Of a stretch of 64,000 bases of DNA, positions 49,442 through 59,799 are shown in pieces; within the stretch, counting starts at the first letter, position 1; each line of letters begins with the position of its first letter. Both the position numbers and the translations under genes were made by a program. The notes under the pieces are model-generated. The model had not been told where the DNA came from and searched no databases. It saw only the letters and a program-made list of their open reading frames with translations. Where the stretch lies: the NCBI RefSeq assembly GCF_000012965.1, contig NC_007575.1, forward strand, positions 2,108,001 to 2,172,000. The letters run 5' to 3'. The DNA comes from Sulfurimonas denitrificans DSM 1251. GTDB lineage: Bacteria; Campylobacterota; Campylobacteria; Campylobacterales; Sulfurimonadaceae.

Positions 49442-50050
49442 ATGAATGTTAAAAAAATCTACATGGACGCAGACGCTCTTTTAGAGGGACATTTTAAGTT
49501 AAGCAGTGGAAATCATTCACAGTTTTATCTTCAATCTGCTAAAGTTTTAGAAGACCCAAAAACAGCCAAACTTTTAGCAGATGCTCTAGCTCTTCAGATA
49601 AAAGAGAGCGCTTTAGAGATAGACACGGTTTGTGCTCCTGCACTTGGTGGCTTAATAGCTGGTTTTGCACTAGCTAGCGCACTTGATGTCCGCTCTATTT
49701 TTGCTGAGAGAGTTGATGGAGTGATGAATCTTCGCCGTGGTTTTGAGATAAAGAAGGGCGAGAGAGTTCTAATGTGTGAAGACATTATCACAACTGGCGG
49801 TTCTGCTATGGAAGCGGCTGAAGTTGTGAAGAGTCTTGGGGGGGAGATTGTAGGTGTGGCAGCACTTGCAAATCGTGGTTTTTGTAAGCGTCAAAACAGT
49901 GATGTTACAACAAAACCCAACTGTAAACTTCCTCAAGATATTCCATTTTTTGCACTTGATGATTTTACATTTGAGATGTATGCTCCTGAGGAGTGCCCAA
50001 TGTGCAAATCAGGAAGCGAAGCTATCAAACCTGGCTCAAGAGGAAACTAA
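49442..50050 (+). CDS. pyrE: Orotate phosphoribosyltransferase
   Basis: 202 residues. The PRPP-binding motif is [20 protein letters not shown] near residue 105 and the orotate-site segment [14 protein letters not shown] near 62. It joins orotate to PRPP in pyrimidine synthesis. A C-terminal [18 protein letters not shown], found in this bacterial subgroup, ends the protein. nagZ begins 24 bases later, so pyrE may lead into the cell-wall recycling genes. Confidence 0.95.
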
Positions 50051-50074: not shown

Positions 50075-51181
50075 TTGAAACTATTTATACTCTCTCTTCT
50101 TTTTGTGATTAATGTTTTAAACTTAAGCGCATCACAAAATCCCATTGATGATGAGACGCTCAAGAAGATGATTGGCAAAATGTTAATTATTGGTTTTGAA
50201 GATGAATATATTGATGAAAATAGTAAAATAGTCTCCCTCATCAACCGCTATGAACTTGGCGGTGTTATCCTATTTGACCGCTTTTATAATGATAAAACAA
50301 AAATAAAAAATATCAGCTCTGCTAAACAGCTCAAGCAATTAACCCTTAAGCTACAATCTTTTGCAAAAAAACCTCTTTTAATCAGCGTTGATCAAGAGGG
50401 TGGACGAGTTGCAAGACTAAAACCAAAGTATGGTTTTGAAGCAACACCTTCAGCTAAAGCTGTCTCACAAAATGATGAGTATATGAGTAAGCATATCTAT
50501 AACGCTCTAGCTAAAACATTAAGACAAAACGGCATAAATTGTAACTTTGCACCTGTTGTAGATTTAGCGCTAAACCCCAATAACAAAGTAATATATGGTT
50601 TAAATCGCTCTTATGGAGCAGCAAGCAGTGAAGTTATAAAGTATGCCAAGATATTTATGGATTCACTTGAAAATGAGGGCGTTGTTAGTGTTTTAAAACA
50701 TTTTCCAGGACATGGTTCATCACTTGGTGATTCACATGAGGGCTATGTTGATATTAGCAAAACTTGGAGCGAAGCGGAGCTTGAGCCATATAGGGAACTG
50801 ATAAAATCTAGCAAAGTTCCAATGATTATGAGCGCTCATGTCTATAACTCAAAACTCGATGAAAAATATCCTGCCACTCTTTCATATAATGTAAATACAA
50901 AATTATTAAGACAAGAGCTTGGATTTAAGGGTATCTTAGTGAGTGATGATTTACAGATGAAAGCTATTTTATCCCACTATAGCCTAGAAGAAATTGTTGC
51001 ATTGTCCATAAATTCTGGTGTTGACATGCTGCTTTTTGCAAATCAGTTAACCACACAAGATATTGACGCTCTTGTTGATGTTATATTTCAAGAGATAAAA
51101 AATGGCAATATCCCAATGGATAGAATAGAAGAGTCAAATGCAAGAATTGAGCAACTTTATAAAACTTACAAGTTTAAATAA
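50075..51181 (+). CDS. nagZ: Beta-N-acetylhexosaminidase NagZ with a signal peptide
   Basis: 368 residues. The glycoside hydrolase family 3 core has SVDQEGGRVARL near residue 108, KHFPGHGSSLGDSHEG near 208 (the conserved Lys-His and the mobile Asp-His catalytic loop) and GILVSDDLQMKAI near 287 (nucleophile Asp). It removes GlcNAc from GlcNAc-anhydroMurNAc fragments. Residues 1-20 (MKLFILSLLFVINVLNLSAS) form a typical signal peptide with an S-A-S cleavage site, so it is predicted to act in the periplasm. E. coli NagZ is cytoplasmic. Shares its last base with the symporter gene. Confidence 0.93.
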   Translation: MKLFILSLLFVINVLNLSASQNPIDDETLKKMIGKMLIIGFEDEYIDENSKIVSLINRYELGGVILFDRFYNDKTKIKNISSAKQLKQLTLKLQSFAKKPLLISVDQEGGRVARLKPKYGFEATPSAKAVSQNDEYMSKHIYNALAKTLRQNGINCNFAPVVDLALNPNNKVIYGLNRSYGAASSEVIKYAKIFMDSLENEGVVSVLKHFPGHGSSLGDSHEGYVDISKTWSEAELEPYRELIKSSKVPMIMSAHVYNSKLDEKYPATLSYNVNTKLLRQELGFKGILVSDDLQMKAILSHYSLEEIVALSINSGVDMLLFANQLTTQDIDALVDVIFQEIKNGNIPMDRIEESNARIEQLYKTYKFK

Positions 51182-52650
51182 TGCAAAGTGCATTTTCATC
51201 CCTTGATTGGTTTGTTTTTGGCTTATATTTTTTAATTTTAGCTCTTAGCTCTTTTGTTTTAGGCAAAACCAAAATAAGCTCTTCAAGAGAGTTTTTTCTC
51301 TCTCCAAAAGCAGTTCCAATGTATGCCGTAGCACTTTCTGTCCTTGCTACTTCACAATCAGCCGCAACATTTTTGGGCGTGCCTGAGCTCTCTTATAATG
51401 GCAATTTTACCTTTATTGGGTTTTACTTCTCAGCTCTTTTAGCAGTAATTTTTATAGCTTATGTTCTTATCCCAAAATATTATGAGATGCGCGCACTCAC
51501 AGTTTACGAACTCCTAGAGTCAAGATATGGTAAAAGTGCAAAACAGCAAGCTGGTGTTATGTTTTTGATAGGGCGAATACTTGCTAGCGGAGCAAGGCTT
51601 TACATTGGTGCTTTAGCTATCTCTATGATTTTATTTAGCGATATCCTTTTTCTACATGTAGCAATTTCGATTGTCATTTTGATGCTTGGAGCGCTTAGCT
51701 ATACCTACTTTGGAGGTGTCCGTTCAGTTATCTTAAGTGATGTAATTCAATCATTCGTTTACATAAGTGCAGGAGTTGGAGTTGCAATTTATCTCTATCT
51801 CTCGTTAGAAAACATTGAAATATTTAAAACACTTAGCGAGGCTGGAAAATTAAAGTTTTTAGATACATCACTTGATGGAAATTTTAACATTGTTGCACTT
51901 CTTAGCGGATGGCTTCTTTTAAATATTGCAGCTTTTGGACTTGATCAAGATATGACACAAAGGGTCCTTACATGTAAGAGCAAGGATGAAGCAGCAAAGG
52001 CGCTTATCATCTCAATACTCCTTACCATTCCCGTTGTACTTCTATTTCTAACTATCGGCGCATTTCTTTATCTTTTTTATATGCAAAGCAGTGTAACTCA
52101 GAGTTTTGATGGCGAAAATATTACAATTTTTATGTACTATATATTAAATGAGATGCCAGATGGGCTTAGAGGCTTGGTTACAGTTGGAGCAATTGCCGCA
52201 GCACTCTCAAGTGCAAATTCAGTTTTAGGCGCTATGGCATCTGTTGGTATTGAAGATTTATACAGACCTTGGAAATTAGTGCGTGGTGAAGTAGATGAGG
52301 AGCATTTTATAAAAGCTTCAAGAGTAGCTGTGCTTATTTTTGCACTTCTTTTATCATTGATGGCGATGATTAGTTACTTTTGGCAACGCTATAGTGACCT
52401 CTCGCTTATTAGCTTCGCACTTGGGGTTATGTCATTTGCTTACACTGGTCTTTTGGGTGTATATTTCTCTGCAATTTTTACTTCACGTGGAAACAGAACA
52501 ACTGTTCTCTTTGCTCTAATCGGCGGTTTTTTAACTGTTTTAGCGCTTCAACCATATATCTTTGGCGTAACAATAGGCTTTGCCTCTATGATGGTTATAG
52601 GTACTCTTGTCTCTTTTTTAATTATGCAACTTGGAGTTAGTCGTGAGTGA
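51181..52650 (+). CDS. Sodium:solute symporter, candidate amino-sugar importer
   Basis: 489 residues with about thirteen membrane segments, including SREFFLSPKAVPMYAVALSVLATSQSAATFLG at the start (the SSS N-terminal region) and IAAALSSANSVLGAMASVGIEDLYRP near residue 340, the family signature around the sodium site. SSS transporters import sugars, amino acids, sialic acid or vitamins with sodium. It lies between nagZ and anmK, overlapping both at one or eight bases. That makes anhydroMurNAc, GlcNAc or their disaccharide the obvious candidate substrates, by context only. Confidence 0.88.
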   Translation: MQSAFSSLDWFVFGLYFLILALSSFVLGKTKISSSREFFLSPKAVPMYAVALSVLATSQSAATFLGVPELSYNGNFTFIGFYFSALLAVIFIAYVLIPKYYEMRALTVYELLESRYGKSAKQQAGVMFLIGRILASGARLYIGALAISMILFSDILFLHVAISIVILMLGALSYTYFGGVRSVILSDVIQSFVYISAGVGVAIYLYLSLENIEIFKTLSEAGKLKFLDTSLDGNFNIVALLSGWLLLNIAAFGLDQDMTQRVLTCKSKDEAAKALIISILLTIPVVLLFLTIGAFLYLFYMQSSVTQSFDGENITIFMYYILNEMPDGLRGLVTVGAIAAALSSANSVLGAMASVGIEDLYRPWKLVRGEVDEEHFIKASRVAVLIFALLLSLMAMISYFWQRYSDLSLISFALGVMSFAYTGLLGVYFSAIFTSRGNRTTVLFALIGGFLTVLALQPYIFGVTIGFASMMVIGTLVSFLIMQLGVSRE

Positions 52651-53749
52651 GTTTTATATAGGTGTTATGTCTGGGACTAGTCTTGATGGAATCGATTTAG
52701 CTCTTTGTGAGATAGAAGATGATGCTTTTGAGCTTCTTTTATGCGCTTCTTACCCTTTTGATGCAGAGTTAAAGAGCGATATTTTAAATGCTATAAATGC
52801 GCAAACAACGCTTAAAAACATTGGCGAAATAGATATTCGTTTAGGCAAAATGTATGCTGATGCGTTAGAGAAATTTATTGAAGAAAATAGCCTTAAGAGA
52901 GTTAAAATAAGAGCTATCGGTCTGCATGGGCAAACACTTTGGCATGAGCCAGAGAGCCAAAATCCTTTCTCCATGCAGTTAGGAAATGCCAACATACTAA
53001 CAGCTAGGCTTGGCATCTGCGTAGTGAGTGATTTTAGGCAAAAAGATATAGCTCTTGGAGGTCAAGGGGCACCATTTACTCCCGCTTTTCATGAATTTTT
53101 ATTCTCTAAATTAAGTGGGAATGTAGCTGTTTTAAATATTGGTGGAATGGCGAACATTACGCTTCTTAGAGAGATGCTTAGCGGTTATGATACTGGATGC
53201 GGAAATGTACTTATGGATTACTGGATTTCTAAATATAACGGCTCCCCATACGACAAAGATGGAGAGTGGGCAAAATCAGGAACTCCAAACAGAGAACTCT
53301 TAAGAGAGTTTTTAAAGGAGCCTTACTTTTTAAAGAGTCCCCCAAAGAGTACTGGGCGTGAGCTTTTTGGCGAAAAATGGCTGAAAAAACAGTTGAGTGA
53401 ATTTGCTAAAAAAAATCAAAACTGCTCATACTTAAAAGCAAGAGATATTCAAGCTACACTCCTTGAGTTGAGTGTTCAAAGTATTGCAAATGAGATAAAA
53501 AAAAGTGATACAACTCTGCTAATAGTCTGCGGTGGAGGTATAAACAACCGCTATCTTATGGAACGCTTGCAAGAGGAGCTAGGAGATATAAAGATAGCTT
53601 CAAGTGACGAATATGGCGTAAGTAGCGAATTTATGGAGGCTATGGCATTTGCTTGGCTCGCACATGAGAGAATCCATAAAAAATGTGTTAAAATTTCATC
53701 TGTTAGCGGAGCGTTAAGAGACTCAATTTTAGGTGCTATTTATGAATAA
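52643..53749 (+). CDS. anmK: Anhydro-N-acetylmuramic acid kinase
   Basis: 368 residues from a GTG giving VSEFYIGVMSGTSLDGIDLAL, with GGAG seven bases upstream; it overlaps the symporter stop by eight bases. The ATP/sugar kinase motifs GVMSGTSLDGID and FTPAFHEF, NIGGMANIT, GYDTGCGNVLMDYW are typical of AnmK. It opens the 1,6-anhydro ring of anhydroMurNAc while phosphorylating O6, giving MurNAc-6-phosphate in the cytoplasm. Overlaps amgK by eight bases. Confidence 0.94.
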   Translation: MSEFYIGVMSGTSLDGIDLALCEIEDDAFELLLCASYPFDAELKSDILNAINAQTTLKNIGEIDIRLGKMYADALEKFIEENSLKRVKIRAIGLHGQTLWHEPESQNPFSMQLGNANILTARLGICVVSDFRQKDIALGGQGAPFTPAFHEFLFSKLSGNVAVLNIGGMANITLLREMLSGYDTGCGNVLMDYWISKYNGSPYDKDGEWAKSGTPNRELLREFLKEPYFLKSPPKSTGRELFGEKWLKKQLSEFAKKNQNCSYLKARDIQATLLELSVQSIANEIKKSDTTLLIVCGGGINNRYLMERLQEELGDIKIASSDEYGVSSEFMEAMAFAWLAHERIHKKCVKISSVSGALRDSILGAIYE

Positions 53750-54680
53750 ATTACAAGAGTGGTTAGGTGAAACGTCGTTTAAAAACTACACTATTGAGAG
53801 TGCATTGGCTGATGCCAGTTTTAGAAAATATTATCGGCTCAGAAATGGGGACAAAACAGCCATTTTGATGGACTCTTCTTCAGAGAAAAACTCTCTTAAA
53901 TCTTTTATACATGTAACAACAAAACTGATAAATGCTGATGTTTGTGCACCAAAGATTTTTGAACAAAACCAAGAAGATGGCTTTCTAATCTTAGAAGATT
54001 TTGGAACAACACACTACTTAGATATTTTAAATAATCAAAATTATAAAGCATTCTACACAAAAGCAATCAATACAATTTTAAAGATGCAAAAAGCTGATAC
54101 CTCATCACTTCCTCTTTATGATAAAGATTTCCTTCATTTTGAGATGGATTTGATGCAGGAGTGGTATTTGGAAAAACTCCTAAAATTAAAAATAGGTGAA
54201 TCTCAAATAAAACTTCTCAAAAAAACCCTAGACTCTATAAGCAGTGTTGTCTTAGAGCAACCTCAAGGAGTTTTTGTACATCGTGATTTTCACTCTAGAA
54301 ACATTATGCTAAAGAGCGATAAAAAAATCGGAATCATAGATTATCAAGACGCTATGAGTGGCGCTGTTACTTATGACTTAGCATCTCTGCTCAAAGATTG
54401 TTATGTTGCTTATGATAGAAAAGAGATAAAAAAGCTAGCCTTAGAGTTTCGTGATAAAAAAGGTATTAAAGTAGATGATGAGACTTTTATAAAGTGGTTT
54501 GATTTTATGGGAATGCAGCGACATATAAAAGTACTTGGAGTCTTCTCACGTCTTAGTATTCGTGATAAGAAAAATGGCTATTTAAAAAATATACCACTGA
54601 CTCTAAAGTACCTCATCGATACAGCACAGAGGTATGAGCAGACAAAAGAGTTTGCTTCATTTTTAAACTCTCTTAAATGA
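53742..54680 (+). CDS. amgK: AmgK-type MurNAc/GlcNAc anomeric kinase
   Basis: 312 residues from the ATG giving MNKLQEWLGETSF. It has the aminoglycoside phosphotransferase fold with the catalytic loop FVHRDFHSRNIML (HxDxxxxN) near residue 185 and IIDYQDA near 205. AmgK phosphorylates the anomeric hydroxyl of MurNAc, making MurNAc-1-phosphate for MurU. The assignment rests on the fold and on the next gene being murU, with which it overlaps by four bases; this pair defines the recycling shunt known from Pseudomonas. Confidence 0.9.
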   Translation: MNKLQEWLGETSFKNYTIESALADASFRKYYRLRNGDKTAILMDSSSEKNSLKSFIHVTTKLINADVCAPKIFEQNQEDGFLILEDFGTTHYLDILNNQNYKAFYTKAINTILKMQKADTSSLPLYDKDFLHFEMDLMQEWYLEKLLKLKIGESQIKLLKKTLDSISSVVLEQPQGVFVHRDFHSRNIMLKSDKKIGIIDYQDAMSGAVTYDLASLLKDCYVAYDRKEIKKLALEFRDKKGIKVDDETFIKWFDFMGMQRHIKVLGVFSRLSIRDKKNGYLKNIPLTLKYLIDTAQRYEQTKEFASFLNSLK

Positions 54681-55339
54681 AAGCGATGATTTTAGCTGCA
54701 GGACGTGGCGAGAGAATGCGTCCTCTTACAGATAAAATACCAAAACCACTCATTGAAATTCACTCTAAAGCACTTATAGTTTGGCATATAGAAAAGCTCT
54801 CCTATCTTGGGTTTAGTGAGATTGTTATAAACATAGCATATCTTGGAGATAAAATCATCTCATTTTTAGGAGATGGCTCTAAATGGGGAGTTAGTCTGCT
54901 CTACTCTGATGAGAGAGAAAGCGGAACACTTGAGAGCGCTGGTGGAATCATAAAAGCACTACCTTTGCTGGGAAATGACACTTTTTTAGTTGTAAATGGT
55001 GATATTTGGTCTGATTATGAATTTGAGAGCGATTTTGATTTAGGAGATGATTTAGCACATCTTATCTTAGTCCCAAACCCGCAACATAACCATCTTGGAG
55101 ATTTTGGGCTTGATAAAAATAGAGCCTCAAATAATGCAAATATAAAATATACTTTCTCTGGCATAGGATATTACAGTCCGAAACTCTTTAACACTCTTGA
55201 GCTAGCAAAACTCCCTTTAGCACCTATTCTTCGCCAAAATATTGATAAAAACAGGGTAAGTGCCTCTTTGTATGAGGGGAAATGGCATGATATAGGTACG
55301 CCACAAAGATTACATACTGCAGAGACTACTTCTGTATAA
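54677..55339 (+). CDS. murU: MurU-type MurNAc-1-phosphate uridylyltransferase
   Basis: 220 residues with the nucleotidyltransferase N terminus MKAMILAAGRGERMRPLTDK, VNGDIWSDY (metal-binding Asp) and a C-terminal WHDIGTPQRL. It transfers UMP to MurNAc-1-phosphate to give UDP-MurNAc, bypassing MurA and MurB. Last gene of the nagZ-symporter-anmK-amgK-murU chain, in which every junction overlaps or touches. Its final 14 bases overlap a small gene on the other strand. Confidence 0.9.
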   Translation: MKAMILAAGRGERMRPLTDKIPKPLIEIHSKALIVWHIEKLSYLGFSEIVINIAYLGDKIISFLGDGSKWGVSLLYSDERESGTLESAGGIIKALPLLGNDTFLVVNGDIWSDYEFESDFDLGDDLAHLILVPNPQHNHLGDFGLDKNRASNNANIKYTFSGIGYYSPKLFNTLELAKLPLAPILRQNIDKNRVSASLYEGKWHDIGTPQRLHTAETTSV

Positions 55340-55472: not shown

Positions 55473-55544
55473 CTCTACTCCTGCGTTTTGTTTTTTAAAG
55501 TCCGCTATTATACTAAAAGTAAAAAAAACAGAGGTTTATATTTC

Positions 55545-56531
55545 ATGAGAAAACTATTTTTTATCCTTATACTTCCCTTTCTTCTTCTTGCAAAGAGTGA
55601 TAACTGTACATTTAAAAACAGTGATTATGAAGATATTTGCAAAAAAGCTGTAAATAACGGTGTGTCTTATGAGTATGCAAATAATTTTCTACTCTCATAC
55701 TTTAAAACAAAAAAATTTGATGAAGTAAGCTACAAATACTTACAACCACAATACATTGCACAACATAAAAAAAATGAGAAAAAGGCAAATAATACACTTG
55801 TAAAATATGTCTCTGAAATGGTTGTGCATCTAAGAGAGTATAAGGAAGTGTATGATTTTGTAGAAAAAGAGTATGGGGTAAACCGCGAAATAATTACTGC
55901 TATTTTAATCAAAGAGACAAGACTTGGAAAAATCAAACCCTCTCATGACGCTTTTATCGTCTTTAACACTTTAGTTTTAAGAGTAAAGCCAAATTCACAA
56001 AGAGAAAAATGGCTCTTAGAGATGGGAAAAACAAACATGATATCTATTATTATTCACTGCTATAAAAGAGGCGTTGCACCCCTAGAGTGCAATCTTCCAA
56101 GCTCTTATGCTGGAGCTATTGGGATTCCACAATTTATGCCAAATAGTTTTGTCTATGCAAAAGGGTATAAAACAGAGATTGGGGATTTGACAAAAATGGA
56201 GGATTCTATCGTATCTGTTGCAAATTTTTTAAATCAAAAAGCAGAGTTTACGTCTCTCTTAGATTGGAATAAAGTTCCAGACATAGTTTCAATAGAGTCT
56301 AAATGGTACGATTTTGAGTTTGAAAATAGTGATGCCTCATTTGTATATGCAAGCAATAAGAAAGGGGATAAGCTCTACAAATGTTTTACATGTGATAATG
56401 AAGAGCTTGACTACTTAAGAGATTACACAAAAAAAATCATGAGCTACAACAACTCATCAAATTATGCCATCGGGGTAATGCGTTTAGCTTATGAAGCACA
56501 GCGAGAGCTACTGCTTAGTAAAAACCAATAG
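55545..56531 (+). CDS. MltB-type lytic murein transglycosylase
   Basis: 328 residues from the ATG giving MRKLFFILILPFLLLAKS, a signal peptide; an in-frame codon 19 residues upstream is less likely. The catalytic glutamate lies in ILIKETRLG near residue 126 and the family segment SSYAGAIGIPQFMPNSFVYAKGY near 200, typical of the SLT_2/MltB group. It cleaves peptidoglycan and leaves 1,6-anhydroMurNAc ends, the very product the nagZ-murU genes upstream would recycle. AGAGG lies upstream. Confidence 0.9.
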   Translation: MRKLFFILILPFLLLAKSDNCTFKNSDYEDICKKAVNNGVSYEYANNFLLSYFKTKKFDEVSYKYLQPQYIAQHKKNEKKANNTLVKYVSEMVVHLREYKEVYDFVEKEYGVNREIITAILIKETRLGKIKPSHDAFIVFNTLVLRVKPNSQREKWLLEMGKTNMISIIIHCYKRGVAPLECNLPSSYAGAIGIPQFMPNSFVYAKGYKTEIGDLTKMEDSIVSVANFLNQKAEFTSLLDWNKVPDIVSIESKWYDFEFENSDASFVYASNKKGDKLYKCFTCDNEELDYLRDYTKKIMSYNNSSNYAIGVMRLAYEAQRELLLSKNQ

Positions 56532-56875: not shown

Positions 56876-57712
56876 CTAAAAGATTTGCACAATCAGTGTA
56901 TGAGATTGTTTTGGCTCTATAACTCTGGCATCATCAAATGCATTTGCGGACTCTATACAAACAAAATATTTGTAAGCGTCCTCTTTCATAGCGCTCATCC
57001 TTAAGGTTTTTTCTATCCATGGATTCCAGATAACAGCAGAAGATGAGTTTTTGTTTTTTATATTTATCTCTCTATTTTTATCTCTTAACACTATCTTTTC
57101 ATCAATCTCTTGATAAACTCTATCGACCTCTTCTTCAAAATAGATATTGCCTCCTTGAACCTCTTTTTGCCACGAGAGCGCATCAAGGTATGGTTTTTTA
57201 TCTAAGCCACTTATAGTAACTTCAGAGATATGTGAAACACTGAAGTATGTGTGAAGAGCTTGAGATATTTTAAAAGCCTTATCATCCAAGTTTGTAGTTT
57301 TTAACTCCATCTTTAACTCTTTGGAAATTGTGATTTGAAGCTCTAAGAGAAACTTATAGTTCCAAATTTTGAGTGTTTGTTCACTGTTAGTTAGTCTAAA
57401 GAGAAGAGTAGTTTTACTCTCATTTACCTCATTAGCACCTACAAACTCCCACATACTAGTTCTTGCAAAACCATGTTGTGGTAAATTTTTATCCTCATTA
57501 AATCCAAACCATGGCCAACACACAGGAACACCACCGCGAATTGCCCGACCTTGTTCAAAATCGCTAATTTCGCTAAGCCATAAAATAGCCTCTTCTCCAA
57601 CTCTTTGATACTCAAAGATATGTGCACCTTGAAGTGCTATTTTTGCTTTTGCAGAGCTGTTTTGAATCTCTATGTACTCAAACCCGTTTGGGAACTCTCT
57701 AACTCTTATCAC
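56876..57712 (-). CDS. D-hexose-6-phosphate mutarotase
   Basis: 278 residues from a GTG (VIRVREFPNGFEYIEIQN), preceded by GGAAA. An in-frame ATG nineteen codons upstream would overlap the transporter gene by 71 bases and lacks a site. It belongs to the aldose 1-epimerase-like YeaD group: GGVPVCWPWFGF near residue 65, PQHGFAR near 80 and a conserved ALHTYFSVS near 155. It interconverts the anomers of glucose-6-phosphate or related sugars. Last gene of the Kef-HAD-MFS-mutarotase operon. Confidence 0.87.
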   Translation of the reverse strand: MIRVREFPNGFEYIEIQNSSAKAKIALQGAHIFEYQRVGEEAILWLSEISDFEQGRAIRGGVPVCWPWFGFNEDKNLPQHGFARTSMWEFVGANEVNESKTTLLFRLTNSEQTLKIWNYKFLLELQITISKELKMELKTTNLDDKAFKISQALHTYFSVSHISEVTISGLDKKPYLDALSWQKEVQGGNIYFEEEVDRVYQEIDEKIVLRDKNREINIKNKNSSSAVIWNPWIEKTLRMSAMKEDAYKYFVCIESANAFDDARVIEPKQSHTLIVQIF

Positions 57713-58979
57713 TGTTTTTCCAAGATGAAATTTTGTGCCCTGCGACAGCGTAATAAAGTATAAAGGCATAAGAGACTATGCCAAGGAGATATGCTGTTTG
57801 CATGCTTGAGACCAGCTGAGCAATTTTGCCAAAAAGAAGCGGAAGAAGCGCTCCTCCCGCTATTGACATAATAAGCAGTGCGCTCCCTTTTGGGGTATGT
57901 TTGCCAAGCCCATTAAGCGCTAATGGCCAGATACTCGGCCATACGAGAGCATTTGCAAAACCTAAAAGTGCAACAAATGTTATAGTATCTGGAAGAGTTC
58001 TAACACCACTCCATCCCCATAAAATCTCAGATAAGAGATGAGAGGTTGATAAGGAAAATACAACACCGAGTAAAAACAAAATACCAAAGAGTGCAGAGCC
58101 TATAAGTGCGTTTTTTTGTGAGAGATATCTAGGTATAAAAACAATTCCAGCTATATATCCAAGCACCATAAAAAACATGGTAAAAGAGGTAAGAGTGCTA
58201 TAACTCTCAACTCCAATACTTTGCGCATAAAGAGCTATTGTATCTCCCGCAATGACTTCTATGCCGACATAAAAAAAGAGGGCAATTGCGCCTAAGATAA
58301 GGCGTGGAAATTCAAATATAGAGCTTTTTTCACTATTTGATTTATCATCTTTTATTGTGAGACTCTCTAGTGATGAGAACTTGATAAGAACGATAAGCGC
58401 TACCAATATAAGCGCCATAACAATATATGGAACTATAAGTTTTTGAGCAAGTATCTCCCTTGAGGCTTCGCTCATCACATCTTGTTCACCAACATCCAAA
58501 AAGAGCAAAGCGCTAAATACGATAGGTGCCAAAACTCCAGCACCTTTGTTTATGATTCCCATTATGCTTATTCGCATAGCCGCACTCTCTACTGGACCCA
58601 GATAAACGATATATGGATTTGAAGCGCTTTGAAGGATTGTAAGTCCTGTTCCTAATGTAAAGAGTGCAATCAAGAAGATAATAAACTCAGCACTTTGTGC
58701 TGCTGGTATAAAAAGAAGTGCGCCGATAGCCATCACTCCAAGTCCTAAAGCCATACCATCTTTGTAGCCAGTTTTTTCCAAAACATACGCCATAGGAAGA
58801 GCCATAACAGTATATGAGATATAAAAAGCAAAGGTTACAAACAGTGCTTCAAACTCATTGAGCTCACATACTATTTTTAAAAATGGGATTAAAGAGCCAT
58901 TTAACCATGTTACAAAACCAAAGATAAAGAAGAGAGTGCCCATGATAAACATAGGAATGAATGAACTTTTAGCGGGCAT
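57699..58979 (-). CDS. FucP/GluP-type sugar MFS transporter
   Basis: 426 residues with twelve membrane segments. The start FIPMFIMGTLFFIFGFVTWLNGSLIPFLK and the segment TLGTGLTILQSASNPYIVYLGP are typical of the FucP/glucose-galactose subfamily of proton-coupled sugar symporters. The substrate is probably a hexose. It overlaps the HAD gene upstream by 11 bases and the mutarotase downstream by 14, so the three are coupled. Confidence 0.9.
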   Translation of the reverse strand: MPAKSSFIPMFIMGTLFFIFGFVTWLNGSLIPFLKIVCELNEFEALFVTFAFYISYTVMALPMAYVLEKTGYKDGMALGLGVMAIGALLFIPAAQSAEFIIFLIALFTLGTGLTILQSASNPYIVYLGPVESAAMRISIMGIINKGAGVLAPIVFSALLFLDVGEQDVMSEASREILAQKLIVPYIVMALILVALIVLIKFSSLESLTIKDDKSNSEKSSIFEFPRLILGAIALFFYVGIEVIAGDTIALYAQSIGVESYSTLTSFTMFFMVLGYIAGIVFIPRYLSQKNALIGSALFGILFLLGVVFSLSTSHLLSEILWGWSGVRTLPDTITFVALLGFANALVWPSIWPLALNGLGKHTPKGSALLIMSIAGGALLPLLFGKIAQLVSSMQTAYLLGIVSYAFILYYAVAGHKISSWKNSDKS

Positions 58980-59799
58980 TTTTTAGGCTATCAAGATAGT
59001 GCGCAACAGCGTCTTCATCATTTGTGTGTTCTAGCACAATCTTTGCTAATTTTTTTACACCATCTTGTGCATTTGCGACTGCAACAGAAGTTCCAGCTAT
59101 CTCAAACATTCCTATATCGTTAAAATTATCACCAAAAACTGTTAATTTATTTAAGTCAAAACCTAGATGTTGGCTCACACTTCTTATCCCATGAGACTTA
59201 TCTGCATCTTTATGTAAGAGAGTTAAAAAATAGCACCCAACATAGGCTTCTGGAGCCAGTATGTACTTAAACATATTGCCAAAGGTTGCTTCTAAATGTT
59301 TTGCTAACTCTCTAAGAAGTACCTCTTCTCCAAAATAGACGATTTTAAAGTTATCATCCATCGTTCTGATATCTCTGCACTCTACTAAGTTATCATCGCC
59401 TTTATATCTTGATAGTACACTCTTTTGATGCTCATTTAGAATGCTTGAGTATAAAAATGCTTCATTTAAATTTTTATCTCTAAGTGAGAGAACAAAAGGG
59501 TATATCCCAAACTTTGCACCCTCATCTATGATGGCATCTCCTGCGTCTTTTGCTATAAATTTTGAATCTATTATTTTTTTATCTACAGTTGCAATTAGTG
59601 CGCCATCAAGGAGTATCATCGGAGCATTTATCTCTACATCACGTAAAAACTGTACTGTTTTTTTATATGTTCTAGCCGTTGCTATGGTTGCGATAGAGCC
59701 TTGCGCCATATCGTTCCATCTACTTTTTGTAAAATCACTTATAGACAAATCAGTTCGTAAAAAAGTGTGGTCCAAATCTGTAATATATATATTTTTCAT
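58969..59799 (-). CDS. HAD-IIB (Cof-type) phosphatase
   Basis: 276 residues with the HAD motif I ITDLDHTFL (DxDxT, residues 8-12), motif III lysine in the KSHG region and motif IV GDNFNDIGMF near 220. The IIB cap lies between. Members dephosphorylate sugar phosphates or act as sucrose/mannosylglycerate phosphatases. Its position with a sugar transporter and mutarotase suggests a hexose phosphate substrate. Three bases separate it from the antiporter gene. Confidence 0.88.
   Translation of the reverse strand: MKNIYITDLDHTFLRTDLSISDFTKSRWNDMAQGSIATIATARTYKKTVQFLRDVEINAPMILLDGALIATVDKKIIDSKFIAKDAGDAIIDEGAKFGIYPFVLSLRDKNLNEAFLYSSILNEHQKSVLSRYKGDDNLVECRDIRTMDDNFKIVYFGEEVLLRELAKHLEATFGNMFKYILAPEAYVGCYFLTLLHKDADKSHGIRSVSQHLGFDLNKLTVFGDNFNDIGMFEIAGTSVAVANAQDGVKKLAKIVLEHTNDEDAVAHYLDSLKNAR

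Follow-up and report, generated by a model that had tools for sequence, protein, structure and literature searches.

A solute:sodium symporter encoded with AnmK and MurU in Sulfurimonas denitrificans is a candidate importer of 1,6-anhydro-N-acetylmuramic acid

The 64,000-nucleotide stretch of the Sulfurimonas denitrificans DSM 1251 genome analyzed here (the window) carries a gene for a symporter of the solute:sodium symporter (SSS) family that is embedded among genes for the recycling of cell-wall sugars. Our analysis leads us to propose that this protein is a Na+-coupled importer of free 1,6-anhydro-N-acetylmuramic acid (anhydroMurNAc) that replaces the permease AmpG after muropeptides have been broken down in the periplasm, a reading to which we assign a probability of about 0.7. 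The symporter perhaps carries N-acetylmuramic acid (MurNAc) as well. We infer the substrate, the direction of transport, the sodium coupling, the location of the enzymes and the phosphatase alike.

We envision a pathway in which lytic transglycosylases would release anhydromuropeptides, an exported NagZ would strip N-acetylglucosamine (GlcNAc) from them in the periplasm and an exported enzyme of the Amidase_2 family would take off the stem peptide in the same compartment. The symporter would then carry the remaining carboxylated amino sugar across the inner membrane, AnmK would turn it into MurNAc-6-phosphate, a phosphatase (for which a nearby HAD protein is a candidate) would yield MurNAc, and AmgK and MurU would complete uridine diphosphate-MurNAc (UDP-MurNAc). 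The symporter would take the place of AmpG but act after hydrolysis, not before it.

A symporter gene within a recycling operon

The genes in question follow one another on the plus strand in the order pyrE, nagZ, symporter, anmK, amgK, murU and lytic transglycosylase:

49442-50050, plus strand: pyrE, 24 nt upstream of nagZ
50075..51181, plus strand: nagZ, glycoside hydrolase family 3 (GH3) beta-N-acetylglucosaminidase with an export-type hydrophobic N-terminus (PF00933, E 6.2e-68)
51181..52650, plus strand: SSS symporter of 489 residues (PF00474), the proposed anhydroMurNAc importer
52643..53749, plus strand: anmK, anhydro-N-acetylmuramic acid kinase (PF03702, 440 bits; NF007139, 460.6 bits, cut-off 367)
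53733..54680, plus strand: amgK, MurNAc/GlcNAc 1-kinase (NF045759, 237.5 bits, below the cut-off of 550; adjoins anmK/murU in relatives)
54677..55339, plus strand: murU, MurNAc-1-phosphate uridylyltransferase (NF045761, 288.6 bits, cut-off 250)
55488..56531, plus strand: SLT_2/MltB-like lytic transglycosylase with an export-type N-terminus, a maker of anhydro ends (PF13406, E 1.9e-32)

Because pyrE lies just 24 nt ahead of nagZ, the transcription unit may be longer. An earlier note on this DNA had described the symporter gene as touching nagZ and overlapping anmK, and so it does: the nagZ/symporter junction reads TAATG, with one nucleotide common to both genes, and the overlap with anmK is 8 nt from the more probable anmK start, GTG at 52643, which has a ribosome-binding-like GGAG just upstream, or 20 nt from the mechanically called TTG at 52631. 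The note's further claim that the other operon members all act on anhydroMurNAc holds in that they belong to one pathway and fails in its wording, as AmgK acts on MurNAc and MurU on MurNAc-1-phosphate. NagZ carries the motifs KHFPGHG..DSH and SDDLQM, has an N-terminal hydrophobicity of 2.82 and scores 183 bits against NF003740, below the cut-off of 207. Since NagZ and AmgK fall below their NCBIfam cut-offs, we name these two from their Pfam family, motifs and context.

Co-occurrence with AnmK and MurU, and the search for AmpG

We searched a sample of 347 genomes of the class for the symporter, AnmK, MurU and AmpG. Some symporter match was found in 65 genomes; 35 of these carry orthologs (57-100% identity over nearly the full length), and the best match in the remaining 30 is at most 30% identical. 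AnmK is present in 36 genomes, and inspection shows these to be the very 36 in which MurU passes its cut-off; below that cut-off the MurU model matches related nucleotidyltransferases in all 347. Every one of the 35 symporter carriers also has AnmK and MurU (Fisher p 2.7e-47, a value that is overstated, as the genomes are related, and is no true probability). The only AnmK-positive genome lacking the symporter, G284, is a 240-contig assembly whose AnmK match begins at position 678 of the contig. The spread of AnmK is patchy: it was found in 21 of the 26 genomes from the window's genus, in three of another genus of its family and in 12 of a second family, 11 of which carry the symporter. A chance neighborhood is rejected, since the arrangement recurs in relatives whose symporters are 57-78% identical and the symporter co-occurs with AnmK and MurU.

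The search for AmpG (TIGR00901), set beforehand as a test capable of overturning the proposal, went in its favor: there is no match in the S. denitrificans genome at E <= 1, and none above the model cut-off in the 347 class genomes, 38 of which have weaker matches. Among the 36 AnmK-positive genomes only G342 has such a weak match (149 bits against 350). In a control set the model matched E. coli among others and was over its cut-off in 2 of 14 genomes.

The steps that follow AnmK were compared in a set of 52 genomes, composed of the 36 AnmK-positive ones and 16 AnmK-negative genomes of the window's family. MurQ (TIGR00274) is over its cut-off in none of the 52, that of S. denitrificans included; all 52 match weakly (at most 36.4 bits against 302), and we take these matches for other SIS-domain proteins. 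On the strength of this result we prefer, for the class, an anabolic over a catabolic route. The anabolic sequence of AnmK, phosphatase, AmgK and MurU has been described in Pseudomonas (PMC5371407).

Conserved gene neighborhoods in the class

Clustering of the symporter with anmK, which the earlier note had proposed to map in other genomes, was borne out. Scanning 37 stretches from relatives with the window proteins (counts include the window), we found a single contig carrying both genes in 33 of 35 genomes. All 33 have them on the same strand, with a separation below 450 nt in 23, below 5.5 kb in 32 and of 8.0 kb in one; the genes lie on different contigs in G234 and G266. A lytic transglycosylase gene is near the operon in 20 of the 21 symporter-carrying genomes of the window's genus, and none was found in the scanned stretches of the other genus and the second family.

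Directly upstream of the symporter gene in 34 of the 35 genomes is a gene for a NagZ-amidase fusion (15), an amidase (10) or NagZ alone (9, window included). The fusions are 550-575 residues long, with an N-terminal GH3 domain and a C-terminal Amidase_2 domain that was found in 15 of 15 (Pfam on one of them gave PF00933 at 1.1e-65 and PF01510 at 3.8e-21). The separate Amidase_2 genes belong to 10 second-family genomes and in 8 of these overlap the symporter gene by 1-4 nt. Export was judged from N-terminal hydrophobicity (12-residue mean; for the L041 amidase, by eye). By this measure the N-termini of the NagZ and amidase open reading frames score 2.0 to 3.1 versus 0.5 to 1.3 for AnmK, AmgK and MurU; three amidases carry a lipobox-like cysteine. 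Across these 34 genomes the symporter gene is directly behind that of an apparently exported enzyme that would help to release free anhydroMurNAc.

In two stretches a C-terminal SSS fragment lies, along with inserted genes, between the intact symporter gene and anmK (L043:9910-10311 and L044:7182-7571). These fragments are traces of duplication.

Fold and ligand-binding pocket of the symporter

The protein belongs to the SSS family by every test made. It matches PF00474 with 93.4 bits (cut-off 22.8; Pfam) and has no annotated subtype, because all of its NCBIfam matches are below cut-off (the best is TIGR00813, 149 bits against 184). The solved relatives nearest in sequence are SiaT (5nv9, E 1.7e-36), to which it is about 25% identical, SMVT, SMCT1 and vSGLT. 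A model predicted from 60 sequences (mean predicted local distance difference test score, pLDDT, 89.2) adopts the LeuT-type fold of the SSS kind, and Foldseek and VIA-align both put SiaT first. With VIA-align the comparison to SiaT (5nv9/5nva) gave Z 42-43 (best 43.4) and a root-mean-square deviation of 2.6 over 457 residues, and the runners-up were NIS (Z 37.8) and SGLT1 (Z 37.7). The genome, a single contig of 2,201,561 bases, has three SSS genes, and the window's symporter is distinct among them because the other two, by reading, encode an acetate-permease-like protein (L001) and a PutP-like protein beside a PutA-like gene (L002). An amino-acid substrate is judged unlikely for the window's symporter, as this PutP-like protein is the product of a separate gene with its PutA-like neighbor.

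In SiaT, whose ligand is a monosaccharide, Ser60 and Thr63 are described as binding the substrate carboxylate and Arg135 as forming a salt bridge with it (PMC5931594). We aligned 119 homologs, comprising the 35 orthologs and 84 proteins from outside the class, with SiaT as the reference. The equivalents of Ser60 and Thr63, in transmembrane helix 1 (TM1), are kept in 119 of 119, as are those of Asp182 and Arg260. Arg132 and Arg139 in TM3, one helical turn either side of position 135, are likewise invariant (119/119); Gln82 and Gln250 of SiaT are not conserved. The hydroxyls of the Na2 site in TM8 are present as Ser343/Ser344 in the window protein, and among the 35 orthologs the first position is Ser in 30, Thr in 4 and Ala in 1 and the second Ser in 35. 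AnhydroMurNAc bears a lactyl carboxylate, and the pocket residues fit, but do not prove, a Na+-coupled transporter of a carboxylated amino sugar of this kind. The symporter resembles SiaT in its predicted fold, in the four kept equivalents (Ser60, Thr63, Asp182 and Arg260) and in the carboxylated amino-sugar substrate that we propose; it differs in overall identity, in having Ala for Arg135 together with Arg132/Arg139, and in lacking any sialic-acid catabolic family among ten proteins of its locus (Pfam). A sialic-acid role is judged unlikely, with no nan-type family among these 10 proteins (symporter included) and with Arg135 lost.

Homologs outside the class

Plasmid records yielded six Sphingomonadales matches with 38-42% identity, and the next matches were at about 28%. 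In Novosphingobium EMRT-2 the symporter gene lies between a TonB receptor gene and murQ, with anmK, nagA and genes for an SIS protein and D-lactate dehydrogenase nearby. A wider outside set consisted of 84 loci, the best 80 of at least 544 relatives on genome contigs plus four plasmid loci, whose products are 37-47% identical to the symporter. The best 80 are nearly all from Alphaproteobacteria and the loci mostly from Sphingomonadales, and the sample is centered on Novosphingobium because the first row of the query was a Novosphingobium protein. MurQ is encoded within 10 kb at 55 of the 84 loci (at 49, less than 300 nt from the symporter gene), AnmK at 26 and a BadF-type kinase at 28. In a quick tree the 35 class proteins form one clade (Shimodaira-Hasegawa-like approximate likelihood ratio test, SH-aLRT, 100), and linkage to MurQ/AnmK sits on deep branches with the unlinked rows nested and seven label changes, in a topology that is uncertain at its root, its outgroup and several long branches. 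MurQ acts on MurNAc-6-phosphate and AnmK on anhydroMurNAc. The factor common to both lineages is anhydroMurNAc/MurNAc chemistry, with MurQ downstream in one and AmgK plus MurU in the other.

At three Robiginitomaculum-like loci (L165, 8485-16171; L155; L152) the SSS homolog occurs with a beta-lactamase-family protein. L165 also encodes a Na+/H+ antiporter, an amidohydrolase and an NlpC/P60 protein (Pfam), and both L165 and L155 encode a DUF819-like protein by reading. Perhaps these are peptidoglycan-scavenging loci.

Alternative substrates and evidence to the contrary

The alternative that we take most seriously, while considering it unlikely, is that the symporter imports free MurNAc and that anhydroMurNAc reaches AnmK by another route. 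AmgK is known to use MurNAc directly, a BadF-type kinase stands without AnmK at 16 of the 84 outside loci, and there is a precedent in Tannerella forsythia MurT, described as a member of the sodium symporter superfamily that transports MurNAc (PMC5790795). However, free MurNAc would bypass AnmK, yet symporter and AnmK go together in all 35 carriers. In addition, the lytic transglycosylase found near the operon in all but one of the 21 symporter-carrying genomes of the genus makes anhydro products, and AnmK is the sole sugar kinase in the gene table of the Novosphingobium EMRT-2 stretch, a table that is possibly incomplete.

The earlier note had named anhydroMurNAc or GlcNAc as the cargo. The first of these is supported; the second fares less well, at least where a NagP-like permease is also present. 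Import of GlcNAc, the other product of NagZ, or of both sugars, is in our view quite improbable. In its favor, AmgK also phosphorylates GlcNAc, and the 12 AnmK-positive genomes of the second family have no NagP-like permease. In the window's family, however, such a permease accompanies AnmK in 24 of 24 genomes; moreover, in 10 genomes the gene directly upstream codes only for an amidase and not for NagZ, and outside homologs pair with murQ and anmK. Still less probable is that the symporter takes up the disaccharide GlcNAc-anhydroMurNAc or a muropeptide in the manner of AmpG. No AmpG over cut-off is at hand to do so, but with an export-type NagZ and amidase the substrate would already be split, and the nearest solved relative, SiaT, is described as binding a monosaccharide (PMC5931594). 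We give hardly any credence to the idea that the intermediates enter through a peptide ATP-binding cassette (ABC) system while the symporter carries something unrelated: the genome has one SBP_bac_5 binding protein (at ~0.10 Mb) and YejBEF-YepA is described as importing muropeptides in Agrobacterium (PMC9790009), but the operon contains the symporter gene and not the binding protein, and the symporter co-occurs strictly with AnmK and MurU.

We favor the model in which the symporter imports anhydroMurNAc, and several findings weigh against it. Position 135 of SiaT is Ala in 35 of 35 orthologs (and Ala in 82 and Ser in 2 of the 84 outside homologs), and the arginine argument is one of neighborhood on the helix, not of position. 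At the Na2 site the 84 outside homologs show partial replacement of the hydroxyl residues, mostly by Ala and Thr. AnmK, MurU and the symporter are gained and lost together, and co-occurrence alone cannot single out the metabolite that is carried. In G234 the symporter gene follows an M16-like peptidase gene (by reading) and anmK is on another contig. In S. denitrificans itself the amidase gene is outside the window operon. The 16 outside loci with a BadF-type kinase and no AnmK suggest MurNAc rather than anhydroMurNAc there, and 29 of the 84, seven of them on contigs shorter than 14 kb, have neither MurQ nor AnmK. Ten of these 29 were viewed: some lie beside a beta-lactamase-family protein and other hydrolases, and others have no evident link. 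Members of the wider subfamily may have other substrates.

Comparison with known systems

AmpG is a permease of the major facilitator superfamily (MFS) that takes up intact anhydromuropeptides before NagZ and AmpD act on them. The symporter would share with AmpG the role of inner-membrane entry point of peptidoglycan recycling; unlike AmpG, it is an SSS protein, it would act after an apparently exported NagZ and amidase, and it is not recognized by TIGR00901. According to a review, AmpG occurs more sporadically among alpha-, delta- and epsilonproteobacteria (PMC11382707). In Agrobacterium, YejBEF-YepA is described as importing muropeptides and replacing AmpG (PMC9790009). That system resembles the one proposed here as a replacement of AmpG in bacteria with AnmK, AmgK and MurU, and differs in being, as described, an ABC transporter for muropeptides.

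MurT of T. forsythia is described as encoded in an operon with MurK and MurQ (PMC5790795), in a cluster that includes an AmpG homolog as well, and in an organism described as having no predicted AnmK (PMC7670621); the same account raises MurT as a carrier of anhydroMurNAc, without a test (PMC7670621). The symporter is like MurT, so described, in superfamily, in the kind of sugar that we propose and in sharing an operon with enzymes of MurNAc metabolism; it is unlike MurT in its partners (AnmK, AmgK and MurU) and in that neither MurQ nor AmpG scores over cut-off. The operon with MurQ and a MurK-type kinase that characterizes MurT in its description was not found in the 52 genomes searched for MurQ and is found in part among the outside homologs. 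Because of this difference in operon, we do not file the symporter as MurT. Tannerella and other Bacteroidota are absent among the matches listed (60 of 121) in a murQ search of plasmid records, and two Bacteroidota SSS loci viewed on plasmid-labeled contigs adjoin a ribosome-biogenesis gene, not MurNAc genes.

A further SSS importer, OngIT, is described as taking up the chitin-derived aldonic acid GlcNAc1A, and its deletion as leaving growth on MurNAc unaffected (PMC9537276). The likeness, by description, is SSS-type import of a carboxylated amino sugar freed by a periplasmic hydrolase, as we propose here; the pathway is a different one. The earlier note was not aware of a description of such an arrangement, and MurT is a precedent for the transport of such a sugar by a sodium symporter. 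In the literature searched, the coverage of which is incomplete, neither the pairing of an SSS importer with AnmK nor an exported fusion of NagZ and amidase turned up. New features are the link to AnmK/MurU, a fusion that is apparently exported and the tracking of the amidase by DUF819 described below; the MurT precedent tempers this novelty.

Our analysis names a candidate importer for a group with AnmK and MurU in which AmpG was not found and connects it to homologs mostly of Sphingomonadales. It also predicts that the dismantling of muropeptides precedes entry instead of following it. If this is true, there would be no AmpG-route import of intact anhydromuropeptides, a type of signal by which AmpC beta-lactamase is controlled in other bacteria, and fosfomycin-bypassing salvage would be expected to depend on the symporter. 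Salvage through AmgK/MurU is described as bypassing fosfomycin in Pseudomonas (PMC5371407).

Proposed sugar and peptide arms of salvage

Two further genes of the window, downstream of the operon and on the opposite strand, may belong to the same salvage system:

57699..58979, minus strand: NagP-like MFS permease, the proposed GlcNAc importer of the salvage system (NF046060, 497 bits, below the cut-off of 625)
58969..59799, minus strand: Cof-type HAD phosphatase, candidate MurNAc-6-phosphate phosphatase for the MupP step (TIGR00099, 126.7 bits, below the cut-off of 137)

The NagP-like permease, present in every AnmK-positive genome of the window's family as noted above, is found in 0 of its 16 AnmK-negative genomes and in 0 of 12 genomes of the second family; a single in-frame stop interrupts six of its matches, of which that in G239 is also partial. 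An ortholog of the HAD protein is present in 36 of 36 AnmK-positive genomes and in 1 of 16 AnmK-negative ones (46% identity), with weak partial matches in two more, making it a candidate for the phosphatase step.

The proposed peptide arm is composed of the amidase and a DUF819 membrane protein. Amidase_2 is present in 35 of the 36 AnmK-positive genomes and in 3 of the 16 AnmK-negative genomes, with an additional copy, located elsewhere, in the three genomes of the family's other genus. Full-length DUF819 (PF05684) is found in 36 of 36 AnmK-positive genomes and in the same 3 of 16 (G060, G289 and G327), with short partial matches alone in two further genomes; over the 52 genomes it tracks Amidase_2 with a single mismatch, G284. 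The amidase gene lies away from the symporter gene in 13 genomes, and in 12 of these (nine window-like and the three AnmK-negative ones) it immediately precedes the DUF819 gene, with both in the same orientation. In S. denitrificans (L076:224-2010, ~1.871-1.873 Mb, minus strand) an export-type Amidase_2 gene overlaps the DUF819 gene by 4 nt. Altogether, in 37 of the 38 genomes with Amidase_2 its gene is directly upstream of the symporter gene or fused into the gene that precedes it (25), or is directly upstream of the DUF819 gene (12); the exception is G234, where the amidase is on a contig with neither. That the amidase flanks one transporter or the other is as expected if both serve its two products. 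The symporter is absent from the three AnmK-negative genomes that keep amidase and DUF819, and for this reason we assign the symporter to the sugar arm. The pattern separates two arms: one for the sugar (symporter, AnmK, AmgK and MurU) and one for the peptide (amidase and DUF819).

We infer that the DUF819 protein is a candidate importer of the murein stem peptide, a role that would give these membrane proteins a testable function. The DUF819 family has been placed in the CPA/AT transporter superfamily (PMC8396727), and in meningococci a DUF819 gene is described behind an M15 metallopeptidase gene (PMC12671195), an arrangement that fits a link to peptide breakdown and tests nothing. These findings raise the possibility of a periplasm-first mode of recycling with an importer for each product: the symporter for anhydroMurNAc, the NagP-like permease for GlcNAc (in one family) and DUF819 for the stem peptide, with the NagZ-amidase fusion dismantling muropeptides in many genomes and the Cof-type HAD protein acting as the phosphatase. 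We hold this wider scheme tentatively, at somewhat less than even odds.

Elsewhere in the S. denitrificans genome (L170:1327-3463, ~0.10 Mb), the gene for its single SBP_bac_5 peptide-binding protein is followed by a gene that, by reading, encodes a HAD-type phosphatase. The latter is an alternative candidate for the phosphatase, and the binding protein is a possible component of peptide or muropeptide uptake.

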